Shown here piece after piece: positions 27,034 through 36,398 of a DNA stretch of 64,000 nucleotides. The DNA is taken from contig CANBKJ010000002.1 in NCBI GenBank assembly GCA_947369165.1, positions 16,076 through 80,075 on the forward strand, written 5' to 3'. Position numbers and translations under genes: made by a program. The notes below the pieces were generated by a model that saw only the letters and a program-made list of their open reading frames with translations, ran no database searches and was not told the origin of the DNA. This DNA comes from an uncultured Lachnoclostridium sp. GTDB lineage: Bacteria > Bacillota > Clostridia > Lachnospirales > Lachnospiraceae. Every line of letters begins with the position of its first letter. Position 1 is the first letter of the stretch.

Positions 27034-27462
27034 TCAGCACATTAGCAGTAATAAGTTCTTAATCATCCATTGTAATAGTATGATGACAATGCCGAAGTAA
27101 ACATAACTGATACGAAAAGAAAGTCCTCTTGCAAAAGGAGATCTGCAGGGGGCTTTTTTTTTCCAGATACAGATTTTTTGCAGTGTATGGCTTGCCATAT
27201 ACAGGACATACATCACAAAACAGTAAAATACAAATGGATGATAGACAAAGCAGGAGATGAAATCCCCCTGTAACAGTGATGTAAAGGCGCGGGTTCCCCC
27301 GCAGCCGGGACAGTAAAGACCGGTGATCCGGTGAAACAGGCAGGGGTAAAGTAACTGTGAAAAATTTATCACTTCCCAATTTTGCAAAATAGAAATAATA
27401 ATACCTGCCATAAACAAAAAAATGCCAAGACGGTATAAAACTTTATCTGTCAGAGAGATCAC
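27034..27462 (-). CDS. DUF2752 membrane protein
   Basis: 142 aa from GTG at 27460-27462; a TTG at 27495 would add 11 residues but has no ribosome-binding site and lies in a palindrome (27480-27499), so the start is uncertain. The sequence has the DUF2752 signature CPGCGGTRAF between the first two of about three transmembrane helices. The family is widespread as a single small membrane protein next to DUF4190 or other small proteins; its function is not known. It lies convergent with the two DUF4190-like genes, a common neighbourhood. Confidence 0.82.
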   Translation of the reverse strand: MISLTDKVLYRLGIFLFMAGIIISILQNWEVINFSQLLYPCLFHRITGLYCPGCGGTRAFTSLLQGDFISCFVYHPFVFYCFVMYVLYMASHTLQKICIWKKKAPCRSPFARGLSFRISYVYFGIVIILLQWMIKNLLLLMC

Positions 27463-27479
27463 CTGCTTTCCGCACAAAC

Positions 27480-27499
27480 CAAGTTGCACAGGCAACTTG
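27480..27499. repeat. Palindrome at the 5' end of the DUF2752 gene
   Basis: CAAGTTGC, four bases, GCAACTTG: eight perfect base pairs. It covers the possible upstream TTG start and could be an operator or a 5' UTR hairpin. Confidence 0.55.
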
Positions 27500-27594
27500 C
27501 TAATAACTTAGTCAGAAGTTATTTTAACACATCAAAACGGGGTTGACAATGTAGTTTATGAGGGGATTTTTGCTATTTTTTGGAGTAATATTTC

Positions 27595-33241: not shown

Positions 33242-33264
33242 AGTCAAGCAGTGTTAAATTGCAT

Positions 33265-33347
33265 GCGGAGTTGCTGGAATTGGCAGACAGGCATGACTAA
33301 GGATCATGTGTCTCTGAGACGTGTGGGTTCAAGTCCCATACTCCGCA
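33265..33347 (+). tRNA. tRNA-Leu (anticodon AAG)
   Basis: An 83-nt tRNA with long variable arm. Acceptor GCGGAGT pairs with the 3' ACTCCGC (discriminator A). The anticodon arm CATGA-CTAAGGA-TCATG shows anticodon AAG. GGTTCAAGTCC is the T arm. CCA is not encoded. Confidence 0.93.
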
Positions 33348-33363
33348 TTGGCAAAATGATAGG

Positions 33364-33498: not shown

Positions 33499-34227
33499 AT
33501 GAAGTTGAATGTGAAAGTAAAATTAGCTTCGGCGGTTATTTTGACAGGCTTGTGCCTGTCGTTTTCGGCGGCAGATGCAAAGGAGGCCTGTGCGGCGAGG
33601 CAGAAGGTTATAGCCATCGATGCGGGGCATCAGCTGCGGGGAAACAACGCGAAGGAACCTAATGGCCCAGGTTCTTCTACAAAAAAGGCAAAGGTGACGT
33701 CGGGTACCTCCGGCTGTGCAACAAAACTGCCTGAATATAAACTGAACCTTCAGGTGGCTAAGAAGTTAAAGAAAGAACTGGTGAAGCGGGGCTACAAGGT
33801 GGTCATGATCCGCACCAGCCATAATGTAAATATATCCAATGTTCAGCGGGCCCAGGTGGCAAACCAGGCAAAAGCAGATGCCTTTGTGAGAATCCATGCA
33901 AATTCCGCTTCCAGTTCCTCGGTCAGCGGGGCGCTGACCATCGCTCCGACGAACAAAAACCGGTATCTGTCAAAAAAAGTACGGAGCGCCAGCCAGAAAT
34001 TTTCCAAAAAGGTTATTGATGCTTTCTGCCGTGCCACAGGAGCGAAGAACCGTGGTGTCATGTATACGGACACAATGACGGGAATTAACTGGTGTAAGAT
34101 TCCTGTAACTATCATTGAAATGGGCTTTATGAGCAATCCGGCGGAAGACCGGAAGATGTCTTCGGCTTCCTATCAGAAAAAGATGGTAAAGGGAATTGCG
34201 GATGGAATAGATTCATATCTTGCCTGA
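33499..34227 (+). CDS. N-acetylmuramoyl-L-alanine amidase (Amidase_3), secreted
   Basis: 242 aa; ATG 33499 with GAGAGGG upstream (an earlier in-frame ATG at 33481 overlaps this site). Signal peptide (1-27, ending near ADAKEACA). The Amidase_3 domain covers the rest: zinc His in IDAGHQ, a second His in VRIHANS, and the catalytic Glu in IIEMGFMSNPAED. These enzymes split the bond between muramic acid and L-Ala in peptidoglycan. Unlike many relatives it has no wall-binding repeats. It is alone between a tRNA and the tandem RNA element. Confidence 0.92.
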   Translation: MKLNVKVKLASAVILTGLCLSFSAADAKEACAARQKVIAIDAGHQLRGNNAKEPNGPGSSTKKAKVTSGTSGCATKLPEYKLNLQVAKKLKKELVKRGYKVVMIRTSHNVNISNVQRAQVANQAKADAFVRIHANSASSSSVSGALTIAPTNKNRYLSKKVRSASQKFSKKVIDAFCRATGAKNRGVMYTDTMTGINWCKIPVTIIEMGFMSNPAEDRKMSSASYQKKMVKGIADGIDSYLA

Positions 34228-34248
34228 TGCCATTTTTTGTGGTAAAAT
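34220..34248 (+). promoter_or_regulatory. Promoter of the tandem structured RNA
   Basis: TTGCCT (34220-34225), 17-bp spacer and TAAAAT (34243-34248). The predicted start, near 34255, coincides with the first stem of the RNA (34253), which supports a transcript that begins with this structure. The -35 element overlaps the end of the amidase gene. Confidence 0.7.
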
Positions 34249-34252
34249 GAAC

Positions 34253-34378
34253 GCATAAGCGCGAACGCAGACTTTTAAAGAATGCGGCGCCTGTTTACAG
34301 GCAGATCGCATTCTGAAAAAGGCTATGTGAGCCAAACGAACAGGGAGAAACCGCAGGTTTCGACGTGAGCGCTTATGC
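34253..34378 (+). ncRNA. Structured RNA, copy 1 of a tandem pair (class not recognised)
   Basis: Outer stem GCATAAGCGC (34253-34262) pairs perfectly with GCGCTTATGC (34369-34378). Inside: a conserved word GCGAACGCAGACTTT (34261-34275), a variable hairpin (AGAATGCG/CGCATTCT, with inner GCCTG/CAGGC), a small hairpin GGCT-ATGTG-AGCC (34321-34333), the single strand AAACGAACAGGGA, and hairpin GAAACC-GCA-GGTTTC (34347-34361). Its last 61 nt (34318-34378) recur exactly in copy 2. I see no ORF. It could be a riboswitch aptamer for the SEC-C/fba genes or a trans-acting RNA. Confidence 0.75.
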
Positions 34379-34387
34379 AGATAACAT

Positions 34388-34505
34388 GCGAACGCAGACT
34401 TTCAGGAGCATACATGTCTGCCAGCAGTCAGATGTATGTGACAGAAAGGCTATGTGAGCCAAACGAACAGGGAGAAACCGCAGGTTTCGACGTGAGCGCT
34501 TATGC
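34388..34505 (+). ncRNA. Structured RNA, copy 2 of the tandem pair
   Basis: From GCGAACGCAGACTTT (34388) to GCGCTTATGC (34505) it is 118 nt, exactly as long as the same stretch of copy 1 (34261-34378). The 61 bases 34445-34505 are identical to copy 1. The variable hairpin has a different sequence but again about eight pairs (CATACAT/ATGTATG), so the shape is kept while the bases differ. The outer stem is weaker here (CAT/ATG and GCG/CGC with a TT bulge). No T-rich terminator follows before the gene at 34592. Confidence 0.75.
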
Positions 34506-34591
34506 CAGTGAAGTATAAAATAAGTACATTATGGGGCTGCCGCCCTGTCCGGCAGAACAAAAACAGAGAAAAAGCCAGGGAGGACAATTGA

Positions 34592-35101
34592 ATGGCATTA
34601 TTACAGGAATGGAGAGATTATGCATACGCAGAGGATATGCAGAATTCCAAAAAGGGAGAAGAACTTTGGAGAAATTATTTTGAACTGGAAAAAGGAATCT
34701 ATGAGCAGCTTCTGGCGAACCCGGAGGAAGTAGTCGAGGGGACAGTAGAAGGGCTGGCAGAAAAATATGATGTGCCCCTTTCTATGATGGTTGGATTTTT
34801 AGATGGTATTAACGACAGTCTGAAGGAGCCCAATCCCATTGACACGATGGAGAAGGACACACAGGTAAAGCTCGATATTGACTGCGAAAAATTATACTAC
34901 AATATGGTTGAGTGCAATGCCGAGTGGCTGTATACGCTTCCCCAGTGGGACGAGATTCTGACTAAGGAGCGTCAGAAGGAGTTGTACCGCAAACAGAAGG
35001 ACTCTGGTACAGTGCGCAATGAAGAACCGAAAGTGGGAAGAAATGAGCCCTGTCCATGCGGCAGCGGTAAGAAATACAAACATTGCTGCGGTAGAAAATA
35101 A
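34592..35101 (+). CDS. SEC-C motif protein
   Basis: 169 aa; ATG 34592 with GGGAGGA upstream. Most of the protein is helical and acidic, with no known enzyme motif. The C-terminus is a clear SEC-C zinc-binding motif ([17 protein letters not shown]), the same fold as the tail of SecA, where it contacts SecB or ribosomes. Stand-alone SEC-C proteins are thought to bind ribosomes or nascent-chain machinery. It follows the tandem RNA element at 86 bp and may be on the same transcript; fba is 89 bp downstream. Confidence 0.85.
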
Positions 35102-35190
35102 GTTCTGGCGAACTTATTTGCGAGTTTTTGCAAAACTCGGGATGAGCAGAAATCATGTACAGAAATTAAAAATAAAATGGAGGTAAGGAA

Positions 35191-36054
35191 ATGTTAGTTT
35201 CAGCAAAAGAGATGCTTACAAAAGCAAAGGCAGGAAAATATGCGGTAGGACAGTTTAATATCAACAATCTTGAGTGGACAAAATCAATTCTCCTCACAGC
35301 AGAAGAGTTAAAATCCCCTGTTATTCTTGGTGTATCTGAGGGAGCGGGAAAGTACATGTGCGGTTATAAGACTGTTGTGGGTATGGTAAATGGAATGTTG
35401 GAGGAGCTTGGAATCACCGTACCAGTAGCCCTTCATCTTGACCATGGCAGCTATGAGGGAGCAAAGGCATGTATCGAAGCAGGTTTTTCTTCTATTATGT
35501 TTGATGGATCTCATTATCCGATCGAGGAAAATGTGGCAAAGACAAAAGAACTGGTAGCAGTCTGCAATGAAAAAGGCATGTCCATTGAGGCAGAGGTTGG
35601 TTCTATCGGCGGTGAAGAGGATGGAGTCGTTGGCGCAGGAGAGTGCGCAGATCCTGAAGAATGTAAGATGATCGCAGACCTTGGTGTTACTATGCTGGCA
35701 GCCGGAATCGGAAATATTCACGGAAAATACCCAGAGAACTGGGCGGGTCTCAGCTTTGAGACACTGGATGCTGTACAGCAGCTGACAGGAGATATGCCGT
35801 TGGTACTTCACGGTGGAACAGGAATCCCTGAGGATATGATTAAAAAGGCCATTAGCCTTGGAGTTTCTAAGATTAATGTAAATACAGAGTGTCAGCTTTC
35901 CTTTGCAGATGCGACACGTAAATATATTGAGGCTGGAAAAGATCTGGAAGGAAAGGGCTTTGACCCACGTAAGCTTCTGGCTCCGGGTGCCGAAGCAATT
36001 AAAGCTACAGTAAAAGAAAAAATGGAATTATTTGGTTCAGTTGGAAAAGCTTGA
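35191..36054 (+). CDS. fba: Class II fructose-1,6-bisphosphate aldolase
   Basis: 287 aa, complete; ATG 35191 with GGAGG upstream. Zinc and active-site motifs are present: LDHG (catalytic Asp and zinc His near 82), EAEVGSIGGEEDG, IGNIHGKYP (His), HGGTGIP (His) and KINVNTE. It splits fructose-1,6-bisphosphate into dihydroxyacetone phosphate and glyceraldehyde-3-phosphate in glycolysis, in the cytosol. A short hairpin (35122-35138) lies between it and the SEC-C gene. Confidence 0.96.
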   Translation: MLVSAKEMLTKAKAGKYAVGQFNINNLEWTKSILLTAEELKSPVILGVSEGAGKYMCGYKTVVGMVNGMLEELGITVPVALHLDHGSYEGAKACIEAGFSSIMFDGSHYPIEENVAKTKELVAVCNEKGMSIEAEVGSIGGEEDGVVGAGECADPEECKMIADLGVTMLAAGIGNIHGKYPENWAGLSFETLDAVQQLTGDMPLVLHGGTGIPEDMIKKAISLGVSKINVNTECQLSFADATRKYIEAGKDLEGKGFDPRKLLAPGAEAIKATVKEKMELFGSVGKA

Positions 36055-36128: not shown

Positions 36129-36398
36129 ATGGCTAAGAATTTTTTAGACGATTTCAATGAAAAGAACAGTACAAACAACAACTCGAACAACAGCACGAAG
36201 AATAGTACAAATAACAGTACTAACAACAGGTCAAACTGCTCAAACTGCCGGAACTCTTCAGGTTGCAAGAACAGCACAAACAACAACTCGAACAACAGCA
36301 CAAAGAACACAAGCAGCAACTCAAGTAACAGTTCAAGTAAGAATTCCAGCAAAAATTCTACAAAGAATGCAAACAATTCTTACAACAGCACAAAGTAG
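36129..36398 (+). CDS. Small Asn/Ser/Thr-rich low-complexity protein with three Cys
   Basis: 89 aa; ATG 36129 preceded by a strong AGGAGG (36115-36120), which supports real translation. After a short start (MAKNFLDDFNEKN) nearly the whole sequence is Asn, Ser, Thr and Lys in short repeats; the middle has a Cys cluster (CSNCRNSSGC). No signal peptide or helix is expected; it should be disordered. I recognise no family. The gene is followed by a hairpin (36411-36442). Possible roles are a storage, coat or metal-binding protein, but none is shown by the sequence. Confidence 0.75.
   Translation: MAKNFLDDFNEKNSTNNNSNNSTKNSTNNSTNNRSNCSNCRNSSGCKNSTNNNSNNSTKNTSSNSSNSSSKNSSKNSTKNANNSYNSTK

Follow-up and report, generated by a model that had tools for sequence, protein, structure and literature searches.

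A multi-copy structured RNA of Lachnospiraceae, putatively allied to Clostridiales-1, and its possible role as an mRNA leader

What kind of element are the two similar units that lie in tandem upstream of a SEC-C/fba operon in a 64,000-nucleotide stretch of Lachnospiraceae DNA (the window), and do they act on the genes behind them? The first-pass annotation took them for a structured RNA of unrecognised class with its own promoter, possibly a tandem aptamer for two-input control. We examined the locus, its relatives in other genomes and the fit of several explanations.

The tandem units and the promoter in front of them

The two units were correctly placed at 34261-34378 and 34388-34505. They share two blocks, both with an offset of 127: a 3′ direct repeat of 61 nt that is exact (100% identity between 34318-34378 and 34445-34505) and a 5′ word of 15 nt, likewise exact (34261-34275 and 34388-34402). 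Their middle hairpins, at about 34265-34328 and 34392-34455, are unlike in sequence and alike in shape, as had been described, and sister species also hold both sequence classes. The first gene 3′ of this leader is the ORF of a SEC-C motif protein (34592-35101, + strand), followed by that of fba, a class II fructose-bisphosphate aldolase (35191-36054, +). No ORF of at least 60 aa was listed across the two units, a scan of the window found no intrinsic terminator behind them, and no pairing with or sequestration of the ribosome-binding site by the units was found. Elsewhere in the window, ARAGORN finds a tRNA-Leu(aag) at 33264-33348 that scores below the Rfam tRNA gathering threshold, and 3′ of fba (36129-36398) repetitive coding sequence specifies an 89-aa protein made mostly of Asn, Ser, Thr and Lys.

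A promoter-like layout, TTGCCT-17-TAAAAT with TG, occupies 34220-34248 (+), with a -35-like TTGCCT at 34220-34225 and the extended -10 TGGTAAAAT at 34240-34248. A promoter scan of the window returned one such site where 0.8 were expected by chance, so that the scan alone would not make it improbable as a chance match. It is convincing because three genomes without the element at the SEC-C locus (G003, G029 and G030) retain the same extended -10 before the same gene. The promoter does lie directly before the element, as first proposed, but is not the element's own: it is the ancestral, host promoter from which SEC-C, and probably fba, is transcribed.

Two models were used, R1, built from alignment A1 of 23 copies (the window and 22 close copies), and R2, built from 34 diverse copies found with R1. 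Unit 1 (34249-34378, +) is a complete element running from GAACGCATAAGC... to GCGCTTATGC, as indicated by its fold and by an R2 match at 34250-34378 (111.6 bits, E 1.5e-24; R2 descends from the window sequence). Fold and alignment place the 5′ strand of the closing stem P1, GCATAAGCGC, at 34253-34262, and transcription is predicted to start at its base, 5 nt past the -10. The alignment then gives the long hairpin P2, of sequence class A with a GUUUAC apical loop (34265-34328), and the hairpin P3 with a GNA triloop and a GA/GA internal loop (34341-34367); the first P1 3′ strand (34369-34378) is seen from repeat and fold. Unit 2 (34388-34505, +) is an incomplete tandem copy, recognised by the repeat, its fold and profile search. 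It consists of a class B P2 (34392-34455; fold and alignment), P3 (34468-34494) and a second P1 3′ strand (34496-34505), the last two assigned from repeat and fold. Its own P1 5′ strand has been lost, positions 34379-34387 reading AGATAACAT, and the two P1 3′ strands compete for the sole 5′ strand. To the right of the element, sequence and flank comparison identify a -10-like TATAAAAT (34514-34521, +), a target duplication or the element's end.

Structure, covariation and relation to Clostridiales-1

The fold of unit 1 has an energy of -53.4 kcal/mol (z -6.7), which none of 200 shuffles equalled. Unit 2 reaches -36.9 (z -2.1), a weak fold explained by the loss of its P1 5′ strand. In the general architecture P1 is the terminal stem and closes a junction that is three- or four-way; R1 is a three-way junction of P1, P2 and P3, and an extra small hairpin in many family members makes it four-way. 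Refolding gave z of about -3 or lower for all 91 copies (median -8.3), a descriptive result rather than an independent test because the copies were selected by model; in 74 of the 91, a multi-branch loop was closed by a terminal stem. A natural short element, L083 1501-1554, lacks P2 entirely.

Covariation was present on all helices. Among the close copies of A1, double changes affect 16 of 48 pairs, against 12.1 in shuffles (0/500 as high). The diverse copies of alignment A3 show them in 47/48 pairs, A3 having been fitted to the model; likewise, 93% of A3 cells are paired, compared with 29-48% when the partners are slid, in an alignment fitted to the structure. More weight belongs to two single-locus checks. 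At a GtrA-like/glycosyltransferase locus, six orthologous copies aligned by MAFFT, gap-free and not fitted to structure, contain three double-changed pairs, one of them with three pair types. At prfA, copies from several genera keep P1 and the P2/P3 shape while the sequence of P2 is replaced (fitted alignment). Some of the P2 covariation could be mimicked by templated repair of long palindromes, an explanation less plausible in the case of P1, whose two strands are separated by about 110 nt. The window element is a genuine structured RNA, and the proposal that its fold is under selection is borne out by close, diverse and orthologous copies alike.

P2 sequences form two main classes, A and B, either of which may occupy a given locus, depending on the species. 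In the window the loop at the tip of P2 reads GUUUAC (class A) or is degenerate; class B sisters have GCUUGC. The A and B tandem of the window can be read as an ancestral state that collapsed differently in the sisters, or as conversion. Tandem copies are common elsewhere (e.g., L086, L116, L117, L119, L137 and L141), and several loci carry repeats of the 3′ part (P3 and the P1 3′ strand), most of which have the P1 3′ strand as their end. Next to the element at the GtrA-like/glycosyltransferase locus, on its 3′ side, L063-L068 carry arrays of ~20-nt mini-hairpins (AAGCACGAANNTGCTTATGCG) whose number varies by species. An integron attC-like reading, prompted by CTAACG/CGTTAG arms, was set aside: the arms occur in one subgroup only, and the neighbours are housekeeping genes.

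The units had been assigned to no recognised class, and the window itself matches no Rfam model at gathering and none credibly at E≤10; the first 15 relatives scanned against Rfam gave tRNAs only. Relatives reached with our own models, in contrast, do match Clostridiales-1 (RF01699). Three exceed its gathering score of 48 bits (L139, 83.2; L120, 52.5; L110, 51.7 bits), seven more fall below gathering at E≤0.003 (L093, L107, L138, L046, L134, L097 and L108), and the matches coincide with places that R2 had found. R2 finds L139, L110 and L120, and R1 finds the same-genus copy L046 at 47.2 bits. The window is thereby tied to RF01699 indirectly, by a chain of profile matches, and on this sequence evidence its element appears to be a divergent branch that is allied to Clostridiales-1 and lacks P4. 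Both have a P1-closed junction, a long P2 with a GCUUGC-type loop, a AACGGACA-type junction and P3, and both come from the same bacterial group and the human gut. The window element differs in having no P4, one P3 per unit and the GUUUAC loop in class A. Since the RF01699 matches of L046 and L097 span repeated 3′ modules, such modules may take the place of P4.

Rfam types Clostridiales-1 as "Gene; sRNA", function unknown (RF01699), and the table of Weinberg 2010 lists the motif as RNA but not as cis-regulatory (PMC2864571); a full-text literature search found no study on its function. Unlike the motif of that table, the copies described here are leaders and intergenic elements. The Rfam type, together with a conserved single-stranded UGAGUSYAACGNACA, would fit an sRNA transcribed or cut from the leaders that acts elsewhere or binds a protein, as would some copies (L118) that have no near sense gene call yet a -10-like sequence in front. 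We consider such a trans-acting role unlikely: no terminator lies behind the units, transcription of most copies would run on into a gene, and the conserved loops differ between clades.

Dispersal, placement and insertion

By DNA search, the window's genome contains one further copy and sister species contain dozens, beside unrelated genes. R1 gave 1-14 matches in 18 of 39 same-genus genomes. R2 matched 77/250 genomes, or 76/249 genera, in the sample of the family and 12/92 genera in that of the order; G558 was the only matching genome outside the order in the class sample, and the phylum sample gave no match beyond the window's own genome. Such scarcity beyond the order doubles as a control for false positives. 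No match was found in the phages, plasmids and viral contigs searched. Named carriers include uncultured Roseburia MAGs, Lachnospiraceae bacterium P6B14, Coprococcus comes, Faecalicatena contorta, Merdimonas faecis and Mordavella massiliensis; most genomes are draft MAGs, in which repeat arrays may be imperfectly assembled.

The search across Lachnospiraceae yielded covarying homologs, which the first reading had named as support, with no fixed downstream gene. The neighbours are unrelated to one another and mostly what we take, from reading the proteins, to be housekeeping genes: prfA, tufA, rplT, fba, purF, pheA, pckA, mnmE, mscL, aroB, adk, metK, ileS and thrS. The element is multi-copy and dispersed, not a one-off tandem aptamer. 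Two copies within a 5′ leader and a complex junction were reasons to think of a riboswitch in tandem, or of another ligand sensor that controls the SEC-C/fba operon, and of two-input regulation. That idea is now hardly tenable: the tandem is specific to this locus, sister species have one full unit there, gene context is random with no fixed gene, and there is no expression platform, neither a terminator nor pairing to the ribosome-binding site.

Orientation and placement follow a pattern. At 48 of 89 loci both neighbours are in sense with the element (+/+), at 16 only the downstream neighbour is (-/+), at 13 only the upstream one (+/-) and at four neither (-/-), one neighbour being missing from the fetched stretch at the remaining eight. 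At least some of the four -/- loci may have spurious gene calls or a promoter of their own. At promoter-type loci of the window's clade, the element starts directly after the TAnAAT of the host promoter, which makes a transcription start at the base of P1 likely; L062 and L083, directly after coding sequence, are exceptions in the clade. In other genera, among the 68 cases in which the upstream gene is in sense, the element begins no more than 12 nt from that gene's stop codon in 31. The end of prfA, with its last codons and stop, falls within or beside the P1 5′ strand. Copies are also found after tRNAs (L104, L044) and after 23S rRNA ends (L130, L131; the 23S end identified by eye). Copies behind 23S and tRNA, like gene-independent sense placement at transcript starts and in operons, might suggest a leader that modifies RNA polymerase or causes processive antitermination, acting on any downstream operon. 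Frequently, however, a single gene follows, and we regard this as very improbable.

Insertion can be seen at mrnC. G017 has the element there, between "...caatataaaat" and "atatagaaatattttg", whereas its close relatives G000, G018, G024 and G004 have an empty site, which indicates an insertion of about 150 bp in G017. The insertion ends in a second -10-like sequence, ATGATAAAAT, and at some loci such copies flank both sides of the element. Flanks match at 7.3/10 within a locus and 6.95 across loci by a target-site duplication statistic, and the right -10-like sequence could either have been duplicated from the target or belong to the element as its end. G001 retains a deletion remnant at the SEC-C locus.

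The main rival to a host function is a purely selfish small interspersed repeat of the BOX/RUP/MITE kind, tolerated at these places, whose fold would help it to move as single-stranded DNA or RNA, and whose sense orientation and tight placement would merely mark harmless insertion sites. Copy number, unrelated genes, filled and empty sites, and -10-like copies on both sides are all as such a repeat would leave them, and the modular 3′ repeats of the window's family resemble those of BOX (PMC3049150), an example of modular folded repeats that can spread without a known host role. Like BOX, the element is small, multi-copy, built from a repeatable module, folded when transcribed and co-transcribed with genes. 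BOX of Streptococcus pneumoniae, in contrast, is enriched between convergent genes (PMC3049150), while the element described here is strictly in sense, begins at a -10 box or a stop codon and shows covariation between genera. Compensatory changes within one orthologous locus, absence from the plasmids and phages searched, and transposase data also speak against the selfish reading: no transposase was noticed beside copies, and a search for PF01797 (IS200/IS605), the one transposase family covered, was positive in only two of six clade genomes. The mobile/repeat sequence candidates (MRSC) of PMC11109978 are likewise multi-copy, structured and covarying; repeat candidates are recognised there by inconsistent orientation, whereas the orientation of the window's family is consistent, with no transposase noticed. 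An unnamed entry in the supplementary MRSC list of that paper may be related to the family. Nothing relevant on Lachnospiraceae or Roseburia was found in the texts of PMC8040213, PMC8632094 and PMC11109978. On balance, we view a purely selfish repeat as a possible but not a probable account.

A second, apparently unrelated dispersed repeat, element II, is present in the window at 35098-35185 (+) and about 27460-27525 (-), with hairpins ATAAGTTCTGGCGAACTTAT, CAAGTTGC..GCAACTTG and TGTGCA..TGCACA. It obeys the same placement rule: its first hairpin contains the TAA stop codon of the SEC-C gene, and in sister species it lies directly after -10 boxes. G004 has element II at the SEC-C site where the window has the structured RNA element, and at phoB element II occupies the place where G004 has that element. 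In L013 1281-1500, L271 and L272, element II is flanked by direct -10 repeats (ATGCTAAAAT twice; ATGTTAAAAT/ATGTTACAAT) that look like target-site duplications of promoters.

A putative cis-acting leader

Sense orientation, placement at transcript starts and covariation at an orthologous locus argue for a transcribed RNA that functions in cis. We favour, with about even confidence, a mobile-like cis leader, that is, a divergent multi-copy RNA allied to Clostridiales-1 that would cap the 5′ end of mRNAs. In an ancestor of the window's clade, the element would have come to rest exactly after the -10 of SEC-C/fba. With transcription presumably starting at the base of P1, the mRNA would open with a closed multi-branch structure. 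The folded leader could then cap the 5′ end against 5′-dependent decay and separate the ribosome site from the transcript start. In operons, an element at a stop codon might cap the mRNA of the next gene after processing. Unit 2 would be a tandem duplication of the 3′ part, of a kind recurrent in the family, so that several P1 3′ strands would vie for one 5′ strand.

Capping is the simplest proposal because, in Bacillus subtilis, 5′ hairpins or structures stabilise long downstream stretches of mRNA (review PMC3997798). The stabilising stem-loops described there, such as that of the aprE leader, similarly lie at the extreme 5′ end (PMC3997798); they are leaders of single genes, whereas the window's family is dispersed and its stabilising role is proposed by analogy. 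Against this proposal, close species differ in whether a given housekeeping gene carries the element, so that no single target gene needs it, and capping offers no direct explanation for the 13 of 89 copies whose only sense neighbour lies upstream.

More tentatively, such elements could be RNA-structured mobile elements that integrate specifically, and in sense, after -10 boxes and at stop codons and so become mRNA leaders, their fold coming under selection afterwards. Element II would then point to a general mechanism of leader insertion in Lachnospiraceae, a possibility that we consider less than probable.

The family is much wider than the Rfam model sees, extending to about 30% of the sampled Lachnospiraceae genera. 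Because its copies lie in sense at transcript starts and stop codons and the insertion sites are clean, its role can be tested directly, and cultured gut bacteria, including Coprococcus comes and Faecalicatena contorta, are among the carriers. If the lifetime of mRNAs is affected, the element would be a portable expression module that shapes the housekeeping genes of dominant gut bacteria.
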